A stretch of 64,000 bases of DNA from a virus, in the IMG/VR virus record IMGVR_UViG_3300035698_010610, positions 26,315 through 90,314 of that record, one strand, 5' to 3'. Under the pieces are notes generated by a model. It ran no database searches, was not told where the DNA came from, and saw only the letters and a list, made by a program, of their open reading frames with translations. Made by a program: the position numbers and the translations under genes. Of this stretch, positions 33,493 to 42,479 are shown in pieces. Each line of letters starts with the position of its first letter. The first letter of the stretch is position 1.

Positions 33493-34053
33493 CCCCGACG
33501 TGATGCCCGCCGCGTGGCCCTGTGGGGCGCGGGTAGAATTGCCAGCGACTCGGGCCGCTTACGCCTCACCTTTGACAGAGGGAGGGTTCGCCCGAGAAGG
33601 TGATCGGTGGAATGATCGGAACCGGCGGGTACGTCCCGTCGCCATCGTTACCGTACCGGCAACAGGTGAGGACTCTGGCGTCGTGCGTCGGAGCGAGTGG
33701 CGGCCTGGCGCAGCAATTGGGCTGCGAGCAAAACGCGGAGCGCCGGGGGTTGTTGCGCACTGAGGCCAACCGTGGACGTTCATCGCGGCCGTGCTGCAAA
33801 CCGCCGGAACCCCATCCAAGAAAAGCAAACGGGTGCGAGCCCAGCATTACCTGTTTTCAATGCCTCCAACTTGCACAGCGCAGCATGCGTTGGTTATCAC
33901 TGAATCTGGCACATCGACAACCTGGTTGTCGATGTGGCTAACATGCGTGCTGACAAAGGTTTACGGTCATCGGGTTTGCCTCAAAACCAAACCGGGTAAA
34001 ATTTGCACTTTGGGAAATGGAAACCACGGGTGCTACACACCGGAGGCTAGCCG
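33493..34053 (+). other. Intergenic region upstream of the recombination operon
   Basis: 560 nt with no gene I can support. It starts with a CCCGC..GCGGG hairpin (about 33505-33533), which resembles the one at 19794, and ends with the perfect palindrome at 33911-33937. Modest promoter-like elements TTGCAC (33871-33876) and TATCAC (33895-33900) precede the palindrome. Confidence 0.4.
33911..33937. promoter_or_regulatory. 27-bp perfect palindrome (operator candidate)
   Basis: Arms CACATCGACAACC and GGTTGTCGATGTG around a single central base. Same element as at 455-481. It lies about 115 nt before the ParB-like gene that opens the recombination operon, just after promoter-like elements. Confidence 0.6.
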
Positions 34054-34986
34054 ATGACCGTATTGAAGATCACGCAAATCAAAGTCGATCAGAGCATTTT
34101 GGGACGGGCAACACTTGATGAAGGGTTGCTTGTTGAATACGAGGAATTGCGACGGACTGAGGAAGCCGTTTTCCCGCCCATCGTCGTATTCAAGGACACC
34201 GCCGAGAATTACTGGCTCGGCGACGGCAACCACCGCTTGCACGTTGAAAAGAAAATCGGCAACAACACGATAGACGTTGACCTCCGCGAAGGGTCGAAAT
34301 CAGACGCCCGATGGTTTGCTGCGGGCGCAAACCTCAACCACGGGCAGCGGCCGTCACGGGGCGACCGGTTGCACGCTATCCAGAATTTGCTGCTTGATCC
34401 TGCACACCAGAAGCGCCCGTTCGTTGCCATCGGCAAACAGTGCGGAGTATCCAAGCAGTATGTCGCCAAAGTTGCCAACGCACTCATTAAGGCTGGCAAA
34501 TTGAAGCCAGCAGCCGTCGGGAGAAAGACGGTTAAAATCACCACAGGCCAACATGCGGGAAAAACTTACGAGAAAGCATCGCCAGGGACCGGCGCGAAGG
34601 CCAAAAAAACAACAAGCCCGGCAACCGCAGCACCCAAGCCCAACGCAGCAAAGAAGAAGGACCAGCGGGGGCACGTTATTCCTGAATACCTCCTTGGCGT
34701 CTGGGCTGGCCGGTCCGTGGTGATGGACATGGTGACGGAACTGTCTGCGATCCCGGCCAAGGTGCAAAAGCTGACGGTGCATGCATCGGGTGCCGGGTCG
34801 ATGATCGAGGTCGGGACGGTGAAGGACTTGCTCGGCGAAGCCCGCACCCGCATCAAGAAGTCTGCCCCGTATGTAATTTGCTCCGACTGCCGCCCGAGCA
34901 ATCATGTGTGCAAGGGCTGCAAGCAATGCGACGGGAAGGGATGGTTGTCCGAAGACGAATATTTTGAATGGAAGCAGGAACACTAA
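34054..34986 (+). CDS. ParB-like protein with C-terminal zinc-ribbon-like motif
   Basis: 310 residues. ILGRATLDEGLLVEYEELRR, then ENYWLGDGNHRLHVEKK is the ParB/Srx core; VAIGKQCGVSKQYVAKVANA is a helix-turn-helix as in ParB. A Lys/Ala/Pro linker follows, then CSDCRPSNHVCKGCKQCDGK, a DnaJ-like zinc motif. GGAGG precedes the ATG. Ends TAATG, coupled to the helicase. Confidence 0.8.
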   Translation: MTVLKITQIKVDQSILGRATLDEGLLVEYEELRRTEEAVFPPIVVFKDTAENYWLGDGNHRLHVEKKIGNNTIDVDLREGSKSDARWFAAGANLNHGQRPSRGDRLHAIQNLLLDPAHQKRPFVAIGKQCGVSKQYVAKVANALIKAGKLKPAAVGRKTVKITTGQHAGKTYEKASPGTGAKAKKTTSPATAAPKPNAAKKKDQRGHVIPEYLLGVWAGRSVVMDMVTELSAIPAKVQKLTVHASGAGSMIEVGTVKDLLGEARTRIKKSAPYVICSDCRPSNHVCKGCKQCDGKGWLSEDEYFEWKQEH

Positions 34987-37900
34987 TGGCGACTCCGCAA
35001 GTTGAACTGCGGCCGTACCAGAGCGAAGCGGTCGTCAAATTATTCGAGGCGTTCCCGGACAACAACCGCATTCTTGTGTCCATGCCAACCGGTGTGGGCA
35101 AGACGGTTGTTGGGATGTACGCCGCGACGGTCTGGCCCGACGCTTGCGAGGCATTAGGGCTTCCGCCGAAAGTCTTGTGGTTGGCGCACCGCGAGGAGTT
35201 GGTTTTCCAGGCCGTCACCCAATTCCGCAACATGAGCGGCGAAGAGGCGGGCGTCGAAAAAGCGTACGACACGGTGACCAGCAGGCCGCTACTGGAACGC
35301 CCCCGCGTTGTTGCCGCGAGCATCCAGACGCTATTCTCCGAGGAGCGGCGGCTCCTGTTTGCCCCCGATGAATTCGGGTTGATCGTGATGGATGAATGCG
35401 TTGACGGCCTCGCGGCAGTAGAAACAGAACTTGGGACTATTCCACTCAGCGAAGCGGTGCGGCGTAAGGCCAAACGAGTGTTGACGCATGATGGAACATC
35501 TGCTAAGTTCGGTCGCATTGAGGCGTGGGCCAGTAAAGGCCGCCGGGCGGTGTTGCGGGTAGCGACATACGGTGGCACCATTCGCGTCACGGGGGAACAT
35601 CCAATATGGACACTGCGGGGATGGGTGGAAGCCCGGCACCTAAAGCCCGGCGACGCCGTTGTGCGTGCGGTTGCGGCGTATGGATACCGGCAGTCGACAC
35701 CAGGGGGCGACCGCGAAAGTGCGCCCCTGGTCATTCGACACCCAGAAGTCGCGAAGAATGGTCGGTTGAGTACGAAAAATTTAAGGCGTCACTGCCGCTT
35801 TGTGAGTGTGGCTGCGGCACTAGCGTTACGCCAAACGCGAGTACGCTATCACGGTTTATTAAATGGCGTGGCACGCGAAGCATTCCAAGGTATCGCAAAG
35901 GCCACGATAAGCGGCCGTCCGGGTGGGAGATCACGCTTACGCCTAACGAGCGGTCGGCGATTCTCGGGACGCTACTCGGCGACTTTAGCATCGGCTTACC
36001 GAACCCACGCAGTAAGAACCCCAGGCTATCCGGGAACCATTCAAGCAAGCAGACGGAGTGGGTTCGCCACAAGGCCGCTATCCTCCGGCGGCTGTCGCCA
36101 TCGGTTTCGTTTGCGGCCAATCCTGGGTACGGCGACCAGTTGTGTACGTTTCGGTCAAGTTGCCTCCCGTGTCTGTTGCCGATCTATGATCTCACCCGAC
36201 CGGACGGCGGCCCCAAAGTCATATCGCGGGCATGGCTTGACTCGCTGGGGCCACTGGGGCTCGCGTGGTGGATCTGCGATGACGGCAGTAGTTCCGCCGG
36301 ATGGCAGATTGCACTTCACACTGAGGGCTTTGACGACACCAGTATCAGGGCTGTGGCAATGTGGTTTCGAGCTAAATACGGCGAGGTACGGGTCGCCCAG
36401 TCACGCCGAGGCAATAAAACGGTTCACCTTCGCAAAGCGGTCGCCAGCAAGGTCGCGGCTGCCATCCGGCCGCACGTGCCGCCCTGCATGGCATATAAGC
36501 TGCGATACTGTCCTGTCGGTTGACCCTGACGGATCGCGTGAAGTCTACGACCTTGCTGTTGCCGACACGCACTGCTTTTTCGCCAATGGCATTCTCGTGC
36601 ATAATTGTCACCACGGCGTTGCCCCGGCGTGGCAAGAAGTCGCCGACTATTTCGACAAGGGGAGGCTGGTCGGGTTGACGGCTACCACGGATCGGGCCGA
36701 CGAAGTGTCGCTCGGCCAGATGTTCGGTTCAGTGCCGTTCCATTACTCCCTGCCCGATGCGATCAAAGACGGCTACCTGTCGAAGATCAAACAGGAGTAC
36801 ATCCGGGTCGAAAGCCTTGACTTTTCCGGCATCAAATTGGAAGACGGCGACCTGTCTGTGAAGGCGGTAGAGGATCGGATCAACCGCGAACAGACGATCC
36901 ATGAACTCTGTGCCCCGGTCGCCAAATTGGCGGGGGACCGGCAAACGATCATATTCACACCATCGGTCGGCTCGGCTGAGTCGGTTGCGGCGCTGATGTC
37001 GGCACGGTATAGCAAACGCGGTGCGGTCGCTGTCAGCGGTTCGACGAATCCAGACGACCGGAAAGCAGCGGTGGAAGCGTACCTCCGGGGCGACATTCAG
37101 TTTCTCGTGAATTGTGGTGTATTTCTGGAGGGCTTTGACGCCCCGAATACATCCTGCATCGTCATCGCTCGGCCGACTGCATCGCGGGCGCTGTACGCTC
37201 AGATGATCGGTCGCGGGTTGCGCGGCGGCTGGGCGTGCCCTATTGAAGGAAAAGAGGACTGCCTTGTCCTCGACTTGACTGGCAAGGCTGCGGACCACCG
37301 GTTGGTCGGCTCACCCGATTTGCTCGCTGGGAATTACGACAAAGCCGTAACGGATGAGATCAGACGGCGGATGGAGGAGAAGGGGGAGGACGGCGAACCG
37401 AACGACGTGGATGAGATCATTGCGGAGTGCGTCGCTTCGTCCGACGAGCTACGGAAAATGGCGTTCGTGAAAGTTGTTGCTGACGCCAAGCTGTCCCGGA
37501 AGACCATCGACCCGTTTTCGTTGCTGGATGTCGCCGAGGAGGCGTTGCCGGGCTGGTGGGACGCGAAACAACCACTGCCAGAACAGATCGACAAACTGGA
37601 GGCAGCGGGGATCAGACACGAGGGCGACTTCGACTACGCATCCGCCCAGAAGCTGTGCCACGAACTCGACGAACGGCGGGCAGCCGGGCTTTGCACCTAC
37701 AAACAGGCGAAGCAATTGGCGATCCGGGGTTTCGATCCGCACATGAGTTTCGACGCGGCGGGCGTTGTCCTTGACTACCTGGCAACCAGGCCGGGCGGGT
37801 TTGGAATGCAAGGCGAAGACTACAAGCGCAAGGGGTACGCGAAAAAACGCGGGCGGCTGGTGTCGTACGCCGAGGTGAAACACCTTCCCAGGTATTGCGT

Positions 37901-38078
37901 GCCGCCGGGCGTCAAGGTGGACGTGCGGGCGGGCGGCAGCGGCTGGAAGGAATTTCTTACCAAAAAGCGGACGGCATTTCACAAGCCGGACGAAACGCAG
38001 GGCGACCAGTGGTTGATCGAGCAAGGTGATTTTACACTGCGGGTCAGCAAGGATTACGTCACGGATCTGAAATCATAA
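34986..38078 (+). CDS. SF2 DEAD/DEAH-type helicase, intein-containing precursor
   Basis: 1030-residue precursor; 627 residues after removal of the 403-residue intein. N-extein: RPYQSEAVVKL (Q-type motif) and Walker A MPTGVGKT (33-40), VLWLAHREELV (Ia). Motif II is DECHH, split between E and C by the intein. C-extein: VGLTATTDRADEV (III), TIIFTPSVGSAESVAAL (IV), NCGVFLEGFDAPNTSCIV (V), QMIGRGLRGG (VI). A C-terminal region of about 200 residues has Lys-rich segments. Starts TAATG on the ParB-like gene. Probably acts in phage DNA replication or recombination, next to RecB/RecT. Confidence 0.9.
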   Translation: MATPQVELRPYQSEAVVKLFEAFPDNNRILVSMPTGVGKTVVGMYAATVWPDACEALGLPPKVLWLAHREELVFQAVTQFRNMSGEEAGVEKAYDTVTSRPLLERPRVVAASIQTLFSEERRLLFAPDEFGLIVMDECVDGLAAVETELGTIPLSEAVRRKAKRVLTHDGTSAKFGRIEAWASKGRRAVLRVATYGGTIRVTGEHPIWTLRGWVEARHLKPGDAVVRAVAAYGYRQSTPGGDRESAPLVIRHPEVAKNGRLSTKNLRRHCRFVSVAAALALRQTRVRYHGLLNGVAREAFQGIAKATISGRPGGRSRLRLTSGRRFSGRYSATLASAYRTHAVRTPGYPGTIQASRRSGFATRPLSSGGCRHRFRLRPILGTATSCVRFGQVASRVCCRSMISPDRTAAPKSYRGHGLTRWGHWGSRGGSAMTAVVPPDGRLHFTLRALTTPVSGLWQCGFELNTARYGSPSHAEAIKRFTFAKRSPARSRLPSGRTCRPAWHISCDTVLSVDPDGSREVYDLAVADTHCFFANGILVHNCHHGVAPAWQEVADYFDKGRLVGLTATTDRADEVSLGQMFGSVPFHYSLPDAIKDGYLSKIKQEYIRVESLDFSGIKLEDGDLSVKAVEDRINREQTIHELCAPVAKLAGDRQTIIFTPSVGSAESVAALMSARYSKRGAVAVSGSTNPDDRKAAVEAYLRGDIQFLVNCGVFLEGFDAPNTSCIVIARPTASRALYAQMIGRGLRGGWACPIEGKEDCLVLDLTGKAADHRLVGSPDLLAGNYDKAVTDEIRRRMEEKGEDGEPNDVDEIIAECVASSDELRKMAFVKVVADAKLSRKTIDPFSLLDVAEEALPGWWDAKQPLPEQIDKLEAAGIRHEGDFDYASAQKLCHELDERRAAGLCTYKQAKQLAIRGFDPHMSFDAAGVVLDYLATRPGGFGMQGEDYKRKGYAKKRGRLVSYAEVKHLPRYCVPPGVKVDVRAGGSGWKEFLTKKRTAFHKPDETQGDQWLIEQGDFTLRVSKDYVTDLKS
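35397..36605 (+). other. Intein in the helicase
   Basis: Cys1 is at 35397-35399 (MDE/CVDGLAAVETELG, block A). Block B is IRVTGEHPIWTLRGW with the T-x-x-H histidine, then HLKPGDAVV. Blocks F and G are REVYDLAVADTHCFFANGIL then VHN, ending at 36605 before Cys+1 of the extein (CHHG). All class 1 splicing residues are present. The frame between blocks B and F (about 35680-36500) stays open for some 275 codons but reads as meaningless Arg/Ser-rich sequence because a homing endonuclease occupies another frame there. Confidence 0.88.
35606..36523 (+). CDS. LAGLIDADG homing endonuclease, nested out of frame in the intein
   Basis: 305 residues in the -1 frame relative to the helicase. Two knuckles CACGCGVWIPAVDTRGRPRK..APGH and CECGCGTSV..YRKGH precede the endonuclease. 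LAGLIDADG motif 1 is AILGTLLGDFSIG, motif 2 LGLAWWICDDGSSS, with the acidic residues in place. ATG 35606 lies in block B with GGGGG upstream; ATG 35621 is an alternative. It has its own stop at 36521-36523, just before block F. In usual inteins the endonuclease is in frame and part of the same polypeptide; here it appears to be a separate gene. Confidence 0.85.
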   Translation: MDTAGMGGSPAPKARRRRCACGCGVWIPAVDTRGRPRKCAPGHSTPRSREEWSVEYEKFKASLPLCECGCGTSVTPNASTLSRFIKWRGTRSIPRYRKGHDKRPSGWEITLTPNERSAILGTLLGDFSIGLPNPRSKNPRLSGNHSSKQTEWVRHKAAILRRLSPSVSFAANPGYGDQLCTFRSSCLPCLLPIYDLTRPDGGPKVISRAWLDSLGPLGLAWWICDDGSSSAGWQIALHTEGFDDTSIRAVAMWFRAKYGEVRVAQSRRGNKTVHLRKAVASKVAAAIRPHVPPCMAYKLRYCPVG

Positions 38079-38096
38079 CCAAAGGCAGGCACTGCA

Positions 38097-38345
38097 ATGA
38101 CAAAGGCTACGCAACAGCGGGTTCCGGTAAGCGAAAAGGCCGTGTATCAGCGAATGACCCGGGCTTTGGCTCGACGCGGCCAGCAACTCTTCAGGCACCG
38201 GCGGGTGAAGGACGCCGAGCATACCGGCAGATTCTACACCGTCGACCTACGGCGGAACTGCATCGCCGATGTTGACGTTGATTTAGACAAACACGCCCGC
38301 GACCTTGGGGTGCTGAAACCCTGGGAGGAAATCCGGGTACGATGA
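38097..38345 (+). CDS. Hypothetical phage protein
   Basis: 82 residues. VSEKAVYQRMTRALARRGQQ could be a helix-turn-helix; RFYTVDLRRNCIADVDVDLD then KHARDLGVLKPWEEI recurs in small phage proteins near recombination genes. Its stop lies at the first unit of the repeat array. Confidence 0.65.
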   Translation: MTKATQQRVPVSEKAVYQRMTRALARRGQQLFRHRRVKDAEHTGRFYTVDLRRNCIADVDVDLDKHARDLGVLKPWEEIRVR

Positions 38346-38925
38346 ACGGCTGTAACGGATTGGAGCGGGACGGACTGGACTGGAAAGGCAGGGAGCGGAA
38401 AGGGCAGGAAAGGAGCGGCTGTAACGGACCGGCGCGGCGTGAATTGGATTGGAAGGGGTCGGAAGGGACGGGACCGGCTGTAACGGAAGGGATCGGACAG
38501 GAACGGAAGAGACCGGAGCGGAGGGGCAAGGAAAGGATCGGACAGGCCGTAAAGGAGCGGAGTGGAAAGGATCGGATTGGATTGGAGTGGAATGGACCGG
38601 CTGGACCGGACTGGAGCGGACGGGATTAGAGCGGACCGGATCGGAATGGATCGGCTGTAACGGATCGGAGTGGAAAGGACCGGACCGGATGGGAGTGGCT
38701 CGGATTGGAGCGGCCGGACCGGCTTGAACCACCGTGCGTAACGGACTGGAACGGCTGGCCGTGGAGCGGAAAGGGCAGGAACGGCACGGCTGTAATGGAT
38801 CGGACGGGCATGGAAGGGAGCGGCTCGGAAGGGAATGGCCGTAGCGGCGTGGAAGGGAGTGGCTTGGAGCGGATTGGAATGGAGCGGAACGGAGCGGAGA
38901 GGCAGGAGGGGCAATCGCACCCGTC
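38346..38925 (+). repeat. Degenerate pentanucleotide (NNGGA) array, block 1
   Basis: About 580 nt in which GG recurs every 5 nt (units such as GCGGA, TTGGA, GTGGA, ACCGG). The run is punctuated by GGCTGTAACGG-like phrases; their GTAA starts lie at 38352, 38421, 38480, 38549, 38657, 38738, 38792 and 38841. Most spacings are 5n-1. Open frames exist on both strands but five is not a multiple of three, so the translations are scrambled and unlikely to be real. It fills the space between 38345 and the gene at 38974. Confidence 0.9.
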
Positions 38926-38973
38926 AATGTTTGGCGGGGCACGGCAACTGCGTTTTACGAAAGGTTTGATACG

Positions 38974-39756
38974 ATGGCAAAGAAACCTGTGGCAAGTGGT
39001 AGCGGCAAGGGAGGCAACGGAAAAGGGCGGGTGGAAATCCAACCGCTCGACATGGACTACGTGGTCATCCGCATCGCGGGCGACTCACCACTGATGATGA
39101 ACAACAAAGCGGCCTGCGTCGAGGAGGTCAACGCCCGCTACTCATCGGTTGGCGGCGGGAAGGCGAAGGTGCCGAAGAAGGAAAAGACCATTGACTCAGT
39201 CTACCAAGGGGCTTTCTATACGCTCCCGAGCAGTCCGGGGCAACCGCCCGCGCCGAATGGACTGTACGGTATCCCCGCGAGCGGAATGAAGAAGTGCATC
39301 TGCTCCGCGATCCGTCCGGCCGGGTTCAGCGACAACACCACCATCGGCCTGATCGGCAAGAGTTTTCGCGTGCTGCCGGACGAAGGCGGGTTGATTCTCC
39401 TGCGTCACAACGGGTTCGCGATGGACACCCGCGCCGTGGCGGTCGGCACCACCGGCAAGATGCCGGAACTGCGCTATCGCCCAATTTTTCCCGAGTGGGA
39501 GTGCCACCTGCGGATTACGTTCAACCGCGCCGTGCTGTCGATTGAATCGTTGGGCAATCTCTTGCAGCATGCCGGGCAGTATATCGGCTGGGGAGAACTC
39601 CGCGCCGAGAAAAAGCAGGGCGAGTGCGGCGGGTTCGTCGTGACCGATGCCAAGCTGCCGAAGTGGGCGTCGGATGCGTACTGGAACGTCTCTGTCGACA
39701 AGATCGGTTTCCGTGTCAACGCGAAGAATCGCACGACGCGGCGGGCTAGTCGGTAA
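38974..39756 (+). CDS. Hypothetical phage recombination-module protein
   Basis: 260 residues. RIAGDSPLMMNN, then YGIPASGMKKCICSAI, FPEWECHLRITFNRAVLSIE and LLQHAGQYIGWGELR, GGFVVTD. This set recurs in phage proteins of unknown role encoded near RecT-type recombinases, with a Gly-rich turn before the last strands. Poly-Gly/Lys N-terminus. GAAAGG precedes the ATG. It lies between the two repeat arrays. Confidence 0.7.
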   Translation: MAKKPVASGSGKGGNGKGRVEIQPLDMDYVVIRIAGDSPLMMNNKAACVEEVNARYSSVGGGKAKVPKKEKTIDSVYQGAFYTLPSSPGQPPAPNGLYGIPASGMKKCICSAIRPAGFSDNTTIGLIGKSFRVLPDEGGLILLRHNGFAMDTRAVAVGTTGKMPELRYRPIFPEWECHLRITFNRAVLSIESLGNLLQHAGQYIGWGELRAEKKQGECGGFVVTDAKLPKWASDAYWNVSVDKIGFRVNAKNRTTRRASR

Positions 39757-39783
39757 TCACCCCACCACGGAGGACTCGCCACA

Positions 39784-40335
39784 ATGGCGAAGGCAAAGAA
39801 GAAAACGGAACTGGTCATCGGTTCGGGGTTTCACATTTCCCGCACTGAAGGCACGTCACTGATCGCGTTCATCAAGTCGCACTTCAAGGGCCGAGTGCCG
39901 AGGGGCAGTCCGGAAAAGCTGGTTGCGGCAGCCCGGCCTGCGACAAGCCCGATCCACTCGCTATTCGAGTGGAACGACAAGAAGGCGGCATTGCTGGAAC
40001 GCAAGCGGCGGGCAGAATACCTGCTGCGGGCCATTCAGCGCCGCGAGGTGGAGGTGACAGTTGGTTCCATACCGGGAAAAATCGTCACCGTCAGCCAGTC
40101 GATTGCCGTGAAACACAAGGGGCACCATGCTGTCATTTACGCGCAAGCTGGCGAACTGACGGCAACGGACATCAACTACGTTCTCGACCGCGCTCTGGTC
40201 GAGTTTCGGAGTTGGCTGAATCGTTACCGCAACTATGCCGAGTTTCGCAACCTGTTCGATCCGGTGATTGCCGAATTTGAAAAGGTGGAGGTGAAGATCG
40301 GTACATTCAGCGGGCGGCACAAAAAAACCGCCTAG
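39784..40335 (+). CDS. Hypothetical protein
   Basis: 183 residues. ATSPIHSLFEWNDKKAALLE followed by RKRRAEYLLRAIQRREV is a pattern seen in phage proteins near RecT genes. The C-terminal part is helical. Basic ends. CGGAGG lies upstream. Followed by a 14-bp hairpin and the second repeat array. Confidence 0.65.
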   Translation: MAKAKKKTELVIGSGFHISRTEGTSLIAFIKSHFKGRVPRGSPEKLVAAARPATSPIHSLFEWNDKKAALLERKRRAEYLLRAIQRREVEVTVGSIPGKIVTVSQSIAVKHKGHHAVIYAQAGELTATDINYVLDRALVEFRSWLNRYRNYAEFRNLFDPVIAEFEKVEVKIGTFSGRHKKTA

Positions 40336-40343
40336 TGCATTCC

Positions 40344-40382
40344 CCGCTGCCGCGCCGTGGCATTGCTGCGGCGTGGTGGCGG
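40344..40382 (+). terminator. Long hairpin after the gene at 40335
   Basis: CCGCTGCCGCGCCG (40344-40357) pairs with CGGCGTGGTGGCGG (40369-40382) over 14 positions with three wobbles, then CTTTG. A terminator with a poor U-tract or an RNA-stability stem at the 5' edge of array 2. Confidence 0.5.
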
Positions 40383-40680
40383 CTTTGTAATGGACCGGAG
40401 CGGAAGGGATCGGATAGGGGCGGCTCGGACCGGAATGGAGCGGAGCGGCTGTAACGGAGCGGCGTGGATCGGAGCGGCGTGGATTGGAGCGGATGGGACC
40501 GGACTGGAGCGGCTGTAAAGGAGCGGCGTGGATCGGACCGGAAGGGACAGGACTGGAGCGGCTGTAACGGAGCGGAGTGGATGGGACCGGAGAGGAGTGG
40601 ATTGGACCGGAGAGGACCGGCTGTAACGGAGCGGAATGGCCCGGAGTGGAGGGGCTCGGAGTGGAGTGGACCGGATTGGC
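40383..40680 (+). repeat. Degenerate pentanucleotide (NNGGA) array, block 2
   Basis: About 300 nt of the same kind as block 1, with GG every 5 nt. GTAA phrases start at 40387, 40451, 40515, 40564 and 40623, spaced 64, 64, 49 and 59 nt, all 5n-1. The recurrent phrase is GAGCGGCTGTAACGGAGCGG. It is bounded by the hairpin at 40344-40382 and the strong terminator at 40698-40754. Confidence 0.9.
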
Positions 40681-40697
40681 TGGACCGTCGCCTGGCA

Positions 40698-40754
40698 CCC
40701 GTCGTCGCTGCGGAAGGTTTGGAACACCACGACGCAGCGGCGGCGGGTTTTTTT
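40698..40754 (+). terminator. Very strong intrinsic terminator
   Basis: CCCGTCGTCGCTGCG (40698-40712) pairs over 15 bp (two wobbles) with CGCAGCGGCGGCGGG (40733-40747), followed by seven T (40748-40754). It ends array 2 just 20 nt before the nuclease gene. Confidence 0.8.
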
Positions 40755-40773
40755 CAAACGTGTTTTGGGGATA

Positions 40774-41586
40774 ATGAAGGGGATGCCAAAGCACATCAGT
40801 GTCAGCCAAATATCGATGCATTCCAAGTGCGGCGAGCAATTCAGACGCCGCTACGAAGAGGGTGAAATTTGCCCGCCGGGCTTCGCGGCCTTGACCGGGA
40901 GCGGAGTTCATGCGGGCGCTGCTCACGCAATGGAGTGGAAGCGGGAGCATGGAGGGAACGTCAGCCCGGACGACGTTCGGGACGTTGCCGTGGCGGGTTT
41001 GGATGAACGCTTCGGTGCGGATGGAGCCATGCTGACTTCGGAGGAAACGGACCAGGGCGTGGCGGCATCGCTCGGAGCGGCGAGGGACCGCACCGCCGCG
41101 CTCGCTCACTTTTGGGGCTGCGTGGTTCAGCCGGAATACAACGCCCCGCAGTGGGTAGAGGAGCGATGGGAATTCGGATTGCCGAACGGGCAGACGTTGC
41201 TTGGCATCACGGACCTTGCAACGCCAGGGCTTGTGACGGATTGGAAGACCGGGCGGCGGAAATTGTCGCAGCGAGAGGCCGACACCTCATTGCAATTGAC
41301 AGCGTACGCTATCGCATACCGCCGCCGATACGGCGTGATGCCAAACGTCCGGCTCGACTGCCTCACCAGCAGGAAGCAAACCACGCGGACCGTGCTGAAC
41401 GCTTCACGGGGCATGACCCATGTTGAACAGTTCGCGGCGAGGTTGCGGGCGTTCACGAAGTCGGTAGCTTCCGGCTCGTTCGTTCCGTGCCTGCCGACGG
41501 AATGGTTCTGCTCAGAGAAATGGTGCGGGTATGCGAAGACGTGCCCCTATTACATTCCAGACCTTGAGGAAAAGGATGACGACTGA
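40774..41586 (+). CDS. RecB-family PD-(D/E)XK exonuclease with Fe-S-type Cys motif
   Basis: 270 residues. ISVSQISMHSKCGEQFRRRY is the N-terminal motif of RecB/Cas4-like nucleases. GITDLATPGLVTDWKTGRRK holds catalytic D and D-x-K; QLTAYAIAYRR is the Q-x-x-x-Y motif. C-terminal CLPTEWFCSEKWCGYAKTCP gives Cys ligands for a 4Fe-4S cluster together with the N-terminal Cys. It would resect DNA ends for RecT. ATG 40774 has GGGG 3 nt upstream; ATG 40783 is an alternative. Confidence 0.85.
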   Translation: MKGMPKHISVSQISMHSKCGEQFRRRYEEGEICPPGFAALTGSGVHAGAAHAMEWKREHGGNVSPDDVRDVAVAGLDERFGADGAMLTSEETDQGVAASLGAARDRTAALAHFWGCVVQPEYNAPQWVEERWEFGLPNGQTLLGITDLATPGLVTDWKTGRRKLSQREADTSLQLTAYAIAYRRRYGVMPNVRLDCLTSRKQTTRTVLNASRGMTHVEQFAARLRAFTKSVASGSFVPCLPTEWFCSEKWCGYAKTCPYYIPDLEEKDDD

Positions 41587-42479
41587 TGGCGAAACAAGCG
41601 ACAGCGAAACCGGTAACGGCCATTGCGCTGATCGGGCGGGACCGAACGCAGGTCGGAGCGTTGTTCAACAAAGTGGCCCCGACGCTGGCCCGTATCCTAC
41701 CGGACGGCGTTGACGCCAAGCGGCTCGGCGAGATCGCCATTGTCACGCTCCGCAAAACGCCGAAACTCTCAGTCTGCACGCAGGCGAGTTTCTTCGGAGC
41801 CATCGTTGAGTGCGGCAAGCTGGGGCTTTACCCGGACGTACGGGGGCACGCTTTCCTGATCCCGCGACGGACCGGACCGATCAACCCAGCGACCAACGAG
41901 AAAACCCATGAGGCCCATTTCCAGCCCGGCTACCAGGGCCTTCTGGAATTGTGCCGCCGCAGCGGGATGCTGACGGTATTTGAATGCCGCCCCGTTTACG
42001 CAAAGGACGAGTTTTTCTACGAGTACGGAACGCAGCCGTTCATGAAACACACCCCGTTCCGCGACGGCCCGGCTGGCGAGTTGGTCGCAGCATACGCGAC
42101 GTGCATTCTGAAGGGCGCACCACGAGCGACATTCCATGTTGTCGAAGCGTGGGAGATCGAACAACTCAAACAGTCGATCAAGCCGAGGGGCGATTCCCCG
42201 TGGCTGCACCCGCTGCATCAGCAGGCGATGTGGATGAAGACGGCGGCCATCAGGTTGCTCAAATACCTGCCGTGGTCGACCGAACAGATGCAGCGTGCCG
42301 TTGCGCTCGACGAGATGGCCGACGCGAACATCGCGCAGCACCTCGGCGAGGACTACGCCGAAGCACTGGATGACTTTTCGCAAGGCGAGGCCGATGGAAT
42401 GGAGGTGACGGCGGACGACCTTGTCGATGCCGAATTCACCGCAACAAAGGACAGCAAGCCGGAGGAAGGGGCGAAATGA
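41586..42479 (+). CDS. recT: RecT-family single-strand annealing protein
   Basis: 297 residues. FFGAIVECGKLGLYPDVRGH, FLIPRRTG and FQPGYQGLLELCRRSGML, then HPLHQQAMWMKTAAIRLLKY are the RecT core. It anneals complementary single strands made by the upstream nuclease (TGATG-coupled). The last 50 residues are acidic, as in most RecT proteins. Confidence 0.9.
   Translation: MAKQATAKPVTAIALIGRDRTQVGALFNKVAPTLARILPDGVDAKRLGEIAIVTLRKTPKLSVCTQASFFGAIVECGKLGLYPDVRGHAFLIPRRTGPINPATNEKTHEAHFQPGYQGLLELCRRSGMLTVFECRPVYAKDEFFYEYGTQPFMKHTPFRDGPAGELVAAYATCILKGAPRATFHVVEAWEIEQLKQSIKPRGDSPWLHPLHQQAMWMKTAAIRLLKYLPWSTEQMQRAVALDEMADANIAQHLGEDYAEALDDFSQGEADGMEVTADDLVDAEFTATKDSKPEEGAK

Follow-up and report, generated by a model that had tools for sequence, protein, structure and literature searches.

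How can a homing endonuclease gene sit inside an intein, in a reading frame other than that of the intein, while the host gene stays open from end to end? The question is raised by a 64,000-nucleotide stretch (bases 26315-90314 of the 90,314-bp IMG/VR virus record IMGVR_UViG_3300035698_010610, a 90-kb phage contig; hereafter the window), in which a helicase gene carries an intein, and the intein carries a LAGLIDADG homing endonuclease (HEN) in the -1 frame. The reading that we favor, with a probability of roughly 0.85, is that of a cis-splicing class 1 intein in which an overprinted gene that has its own start stands in for the endonuclease domain, and whose host frame across that gene is translated into a spacer selected only for the lack of stops. 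Judging from the sequences compared here, the frame-nested layout is a real, recurring architecture in a family with two frame classes, and not an error. According to the mechanism that we propose, ribosomes starting at the helicase ATG would cross the HEN gene in the wrong frame and produce a spacer, ~280 residues long, where inteins canonically have their endonuclease inserted; around this spacer the splicing domain would fold from its two halves, excise itself and join the helicase exteins. Ribosomes starting at the ATG at 35606, within the intein, would yield a free LAGLIDADG endonuclease, which would not be a domain of the intein polypeptide, and its cutting of intein-free helicase genes at DEC|HH would allow the whole intein to home. 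Under selection would be the HEN protein, the splicing ends and the absence of host-frame stops, but not the amino acids of the spacer.

The intein, its endonuclease gene and an empty site

The open reading frame (ORF) at 34968-38078, with its likely start at 34986, has no stop from end to end and encodes a superfamily 2 (SF2) helicase whose nearest NCBIfam model, below cut-off, is RadD (Table 1). An earlier note on this DNA, made from the letters alone, had placed an intein at 35397-36605 with all splicing motifs in the helicase frame, and those coordinates proved exact. The element interrupts the Walker-B motif at DEC|HH, and the residues of a class 1 intein are all in the helicase frame, namely Cys1 (TGC, 35397-35399), block B TGEH, and HN|C, with the terminal His-Asn at 36600-36605 and Cys at 36606 as the +1 extein residue. 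Pfam Intein_splicing (PF14890) covers both ends of the insert in that frame (E=1.3e-11, 45 bits vs a cut-off of 35.8), the splicing domain being still recognised although ~280 residues part its two portions. In addition, the C-terminal part matches the NCBIfam model intein_Cterm (TIGR01443), and with phmmer the N-terminal part matches solved inteins, such as the Spl DnaX mini-intein (1.5e-8). An intron was also considered and rejected, as Rfam gave no match even at E<=1 in positions 34000-39000 of the window.

The LAGLIDADG gene that the earlier note had seen in the -1 frame, with its own ATG, zinc knuckles and stop, is likewise there, its stop codon lying at 36521-36523 and its two knuckles being of the CxCGCG kind. 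LAGLIDADG_2 (PF03161) is the sole Pfam match in the -1 frame of the insert, and Pfam finds no endonuclease domain in the helicase frame. This profile and two motifs bearing acidic residues identify the product as a LAGLIDADG enzyme. With a 14-sequence alignment, AlphaFold gave a confident core for the HEN, while single-sequence input gave an unusable model (pLDDT 34); the best PDB matches of the former are I-WcaI and I-SceI (TMt 0.72-0.74, E down to 7.7e-13).

Table 1. Features of the helicase, intein and endonuclease gene, in window positions.
Feature	Position	Strand	Basis
N-extein, RadD-like SF2 helicase (ResIII/DEAD motifs to ...IVMDE)	34986..35396	+	Pfam ResIII E=1.1e-23 over whole protein; NCBIfam RadD below cut-off
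N-terminal splicing-domain part (Cys1 ... block B TGEHP ... KPGDAVV)	35397..35663	+	Pfam Intein_splicing; phmmer to solved inteins; FoX3 alignment
Shine-Dalgarno-like GGGGGA, ~10 nt upstream of HEN ATG 35606	35591..35596	+	anti-Shine-Dalgarno duplex -8.6 kcal/mol; background 5% quantile -7.4
LAGLIDADG endonuclease ORF, -1 frame vs helicase, ATG to stop, 305 amino acids	35606..36523	+	PF03161 E=2.3e-21; AlphaFold pLDDT>90 over most of core; PDB I-WcaI, I-SceI
CxCGCG zinc-knuckle-like element 1 of HEN	35660..35734	+	sequence; similar elements in L046 and L051 HENs
Helicase-frame shadow of HEN, ~280 codons, stop-free, no conserved protein sequence	35664..36503	+	0 stops vs 5.4 expected; host-frame identity equals HEN-alone expectation
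CxCGCG...GH zinc-knuckle-like element 2 of HEN, shared in kind with split relatives	35801..35905	+	alignment
LAGLIDADG motif 1 (ILGTLLGD)	35960..35983	+	G and D invariant in alignments
LAGLIDADG motif 2 (GLAWWICDDG)	36257..36286	+	D-D-G invariant in alignments
C-terminal splicing-domain part (DTVLSV...VYDLAVADTHCFFANGILVHN)	36504..36605	+	TIGR01443 E=1.1e-7; block order identical in FoX3
C-extein of helicase (CHHGVAPAW..., Helicase_C)	36606..38078	+	Pfam Helicase_C E=4.2e-12

By tblastn against phage genomes we found the same intein site, the -1 HEN and a continuous host ORF in the complete genome of an isolate, Xanthomonas phage FoX3; its HEN is 48% identical to that of the window. In phages Murka and FoX5, which are 98-99% identical to FoX3 in nucleotide sequence on both flanks, the DEC|HH site is empty, and the junction (DE|C...HN|CHH) is that of a precise insertion. 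Because the empty site lies in near-identical phages, the FoX3 element is, on this comparison, a recent and precise presence/absence polymorphism, as homing would give. Intein-free homologues with a continuous site thus come from the FoX3 group, the sister of the window element, and it is only from presence/absence in these FoX-like phages that we infer cleavage of the intein-free allele by the HEN. In RefSeq (NC_055837.1, our L002) the intein-bearing helicase of FoX3 is labelled 'head morphogenesis', and the nested HEN is unannotated.

Nested, in-frame and split relatives

Further loci (L-numbers) came from alignment-guided scans of IMG/VR and from tblastn against phage genomes; searches with a single HEN or helicase protein as query returned none, alignment queries being needed, and a scan of genome contigs gave one weak, partial match. 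Of the 86 related endonucleases compared, 17 are out of frame with a stop-free host ORF that encloses them. The -1 layout is that of the window, FoX3, L012, L046 and L051, and among the last three, every host ORF put to Pfam is an SF2 helicase interrupted at DEC. The +1 layout is found at 12 loci, with large terminases as hosts at L047, L049, L050/L059, L060, L061 and L062, and probably L011, L018 and L072, and with Hel308-like helicases at L052, L053 and L054; the terminase calls rest in part on Pfam (L060, and L050 below cut-off) and otherwise on inspection of motifs. All ten nested HENs that were scanned belong to PF03161.

Conventional inteins with an in-frame endonuclease of the same family do occur at the Walker-B DEC site in other phages (L099, L101, L064), and it is these that would lend some color to the two-frameshift alternative of the earlier note, in which an ordinary in-frame HEN was put out of frame by two one-base errors of sequencing or assembly (-1 in, +1 out). 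The recurrence of the -1 layout in an isolate and in the independent contigs L012, L046 and L051, and of a +1 layout in 12 others, refutes that alternative, and the avoidance of host-frame stops described below is not a product of errors; we leave it almost no probability. A HEN-less mini-intein occupies DEC|HH in Vibrio phage 13VV501A, whose single helicase (L042, 1017-3518) carries a second mini-intein, also without HEN, in the P-loop (GAGK|C).

A third kind of relative is found in Pectobacterium phages Ymer, Amona and Abuela, in Escherichia phages AN_ECEAS and ES, and in contig L039, where the HEN is also in the -1 frame and the host frame has many stops. From their sequences, Ymer, AN_ECEAS and L039 and their group look split, with a layout like that of fractured genes. 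Intein-free relatives of the split members have 81-93% nucleotide identity. In the split members the N and C halves have kept a common phase, which fits, without proving, descent from a continuous ancestor. These phage-helicase split inteins (L003, 2261-5395; L031, from Escherichia phages AN_ECEAS and ES; L004 and L006, from Pectobacterium phages) are apparently uncharacterised, their gene pieces being annotated, for example, as hypothetical, minor tail or ssDNA-binding protein, and their C-half ORF can start at an ATG within the 3' end of the HEN gene. At one more locus of the split type, L041, a deletion has taken out the HEN core and left the two ends of that gene, along with the intein halves, in different frames.

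Fractured genes, reportedly described by Dassa et al. in 2009, are said to be split inteins with a free-standing homing endonuclease gene (HEG) between their halves. In both systems the HEG is a gene of its own between the halves of the splicing domain, and the Ymer, AN_ECEAS and L039 loci resemble fractured genes, whereas the window and its nested relatives keep one continuous, uninterrupted ORF through the HEG (34968-38078 in the window). Canonical bifunctional inteins such as PI-SceI share with the window the splicing blocks, the insertion in an ATPase motif and a LAGLIDADG enzyme at the usual point; their HEN, however, is in frame, while that of the window is in the -1 frame and outside the intein polypeptide.

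The ShiLan element, the nearest published case in the literature searched, has its HNH enzyme out of frame in a methylase gene whose frame is open, without a splicing domain (PMC11855218). It is like the window in that a phage gene, itself staying open, holds an endonuclease in a different frame, with a patchy distribution that in ShiLan suggests homing, and unlike it in lacking the complete splicing domain that surrounds a LAGLIDADG enzyme in the window; a stop-avoidance test is not reported in those parts of the ShiLan paper on which this comparison draws (PMC11855218). No description of an overprinted HEN in an intein with an open host frame was found in the literature searched, although a 2025 preprint by Gosselin et al. 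on non-canonical actinophage inteins, which PMC11855218 cites for overlapping frames, may hold comparable cases.

Stops and amino acids in the shadow frame

That the helicase frame is open throughout had been claimed in the earlier note for 0.8 kb; the openness stands, and the stretch common to the HEN ORF and the helicase frame is in fact 0.92 kb. Its significance was assessed by shuffling synonymous codons within each HEN, which keeps the protein and its codon usage, and counting host-frame stops. None was seen in the window (P=3e-4), in FoX3 (2.6 expected, P=0.025) or in L012 (5.4 expected, P=3e-4 or less). When 16 nested loci are pooled, the host frame has 0 stops vs 168.1 expected, and the other alternative frame of the same loci is normal (294 vs 277.4), as are both alternative frames of 68 control HENs (840 vs 830.6 and 1212 vs 1308.2). 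By chance, 0.077 of the 86 endonuclease loci would be expected to show a stop-free alternative frame, against the 17 observed. The shuffles and the control HENs reject a frame open by chance.

Openness is needed for translation through the region and would not be for an intron or a bypass, so we read the shadow as probably translated. The protein that it would encode is another matter: among the window, FoX3 and L012, host-frame identities are 0.25/0.14/0.20, vs 0.22/0.16/0.17 expected from the HEN protein and its codon usage. As HEN third codon positions, which are second positions of the host frame, are near saturation (0.64-0.74 different; HEN protein identity 41-49%) and host-frame identity is at expectation, the spacer is kept open without being kept the same. 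It is thus well supported by these comparisons that selection holds the host frame open and that the amino acid sequence of the spacer is not conserved beyond chance.

Since the genome of the window is GC-rich, and high GC makes host-frame stops rarer, the locus could also be pictured as a degenerate intein, in which a dying HEN lies out of frame and luck in codon usage leaves the host frame open. We give this a very small chance. In the window, as in the other nested loci, the HEN ORF is intact and neither catalytic motif is lost; amino acid identity has been kept in spite of third-position saturation; and chance openness is rejected also in nested loci of 34-42% GC (L052, L053, L062). A split intein acting in trans, with translation of its C half started separately, like the relatives from Pectobacterium and Escherichia phages, has a small chance as well. 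Host-frame stops in the split members are close to expectation (13/13.3, 10/12.2 and 17/19-20, seen/expected), and such loci do look split; trans-splicing, however, would not need the stop-free host frame of the window and 16 other nested loci.

Expression, origin and meaning

Shine-Dalgarno-like sites stand at the HEN start in the window and at L047 (-10.5 kcal/mol), L011 (-10.7), L072 (-10.5), L054 (-8.5) and L051 (-7.3), and no comparable site was found at the HEN starts of L060, L061 and L062. Alternatively, a programmed -1 frameshift could yield the endonuclease fused to the N-extein and N-intein, with no internal start. The -1 relation in this clade and in the split relatives would suit such a route, and slippery-like heptamers are present in some members (AAATTTA at 35777 of the window, GGGAAAG at 2911 in FoX3). 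Neither the place nor the sequence of any heptamer, however, is conserved, and several members lack one altogether; there is also a +1 class, and many members have a Shine-Dalgarno-like site ahead of the HEN start. We regard frameshifting as clearly unlikely, and internal initiation as the most likely route on this evidence.

Four points weigh against the overprinted, cis-splicing intein that we favor. Expression, splicing and cleavage are what we infer from sequence. The stop-free signal of single loci is significant and not extreme in the window, and weaker in FoX3, its strength coming from the family. The HEN start of FoX3 is uncertain: GTG 3004 is a weak start, and starting at an ATG upstream of it would give an overlap with the splicing domain. 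Finally, the C-terminal splice junction of L012 is out of frame, so that one member or more seems to be broken or wrongly assembled. At 4600-4680 of L012, VYDISVGRTHWF... is read in one frame and SLVHNCHH in another, around a ACTCACTGGTTC-like stretch; a small deletion or an assembly slip in an otherwise nested intein is possible.

In the larger tree, the -1 class forms one group (94/92) and the +1 loci require several changes, with in-frame, free and nested endonucleases interspersed, a pattern that fits repeated shifts between these states. Nested and split members are joined in one tree (93/85), and the larger tree puts the split members beside the terminase +1 members (98/93). The earlier note had read the locus as a free-standing gene that invaded a mini-intein; a separate gene with its own start, in a host frame kept open, stands, and invasion is no better placed than its counterpart. 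In-frame enzymes of the same family, like the HEN-less mini-intein, occur at the DEC site, so that a frame slip of a once in-frame domain seems equally possible.

As for the neighbourhood, the helicase of the window clusters (34054-42476) with a ParB-like protein (34054-34986), an exonuclease (40636-41586) and a RecT-like annealing protein (41586-42479), similar to the neighbourhood in FoX3. Imperfect short repeat runs, rich in GGAGCGG/GGACCGG and with periods of 15, 20, 24 and 49, lie at 38342-38730 and 40391-40680, between or overlapping genes of this recombination cluster.

We suggest, tentatively and at somewhat less than even odds, that frame-nested inteins may be a third intein architecture, widespread among tailed phages and arrived at on several occasions, with a stop-free but otherwise meaningless shadow as the linker of the splicing domain; they would be an evolutionary bridge to naturally split inteins, which would arise once stops appear in the shadow. 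The locus shows how an endonuclease gene could lie within an important gene and still be expressed on its own, with translation of the host gene left possible. Stop avoidance without amino acid conservation provides a signature for finding such elements, which annotators miss, and natural inteins that apparently tolerate arbitrary loops of ~280 residues could be useful in protein engineering. Finally, how split inteins came from contiguous ones is an old question, and these loci suggest a route that can be tested.
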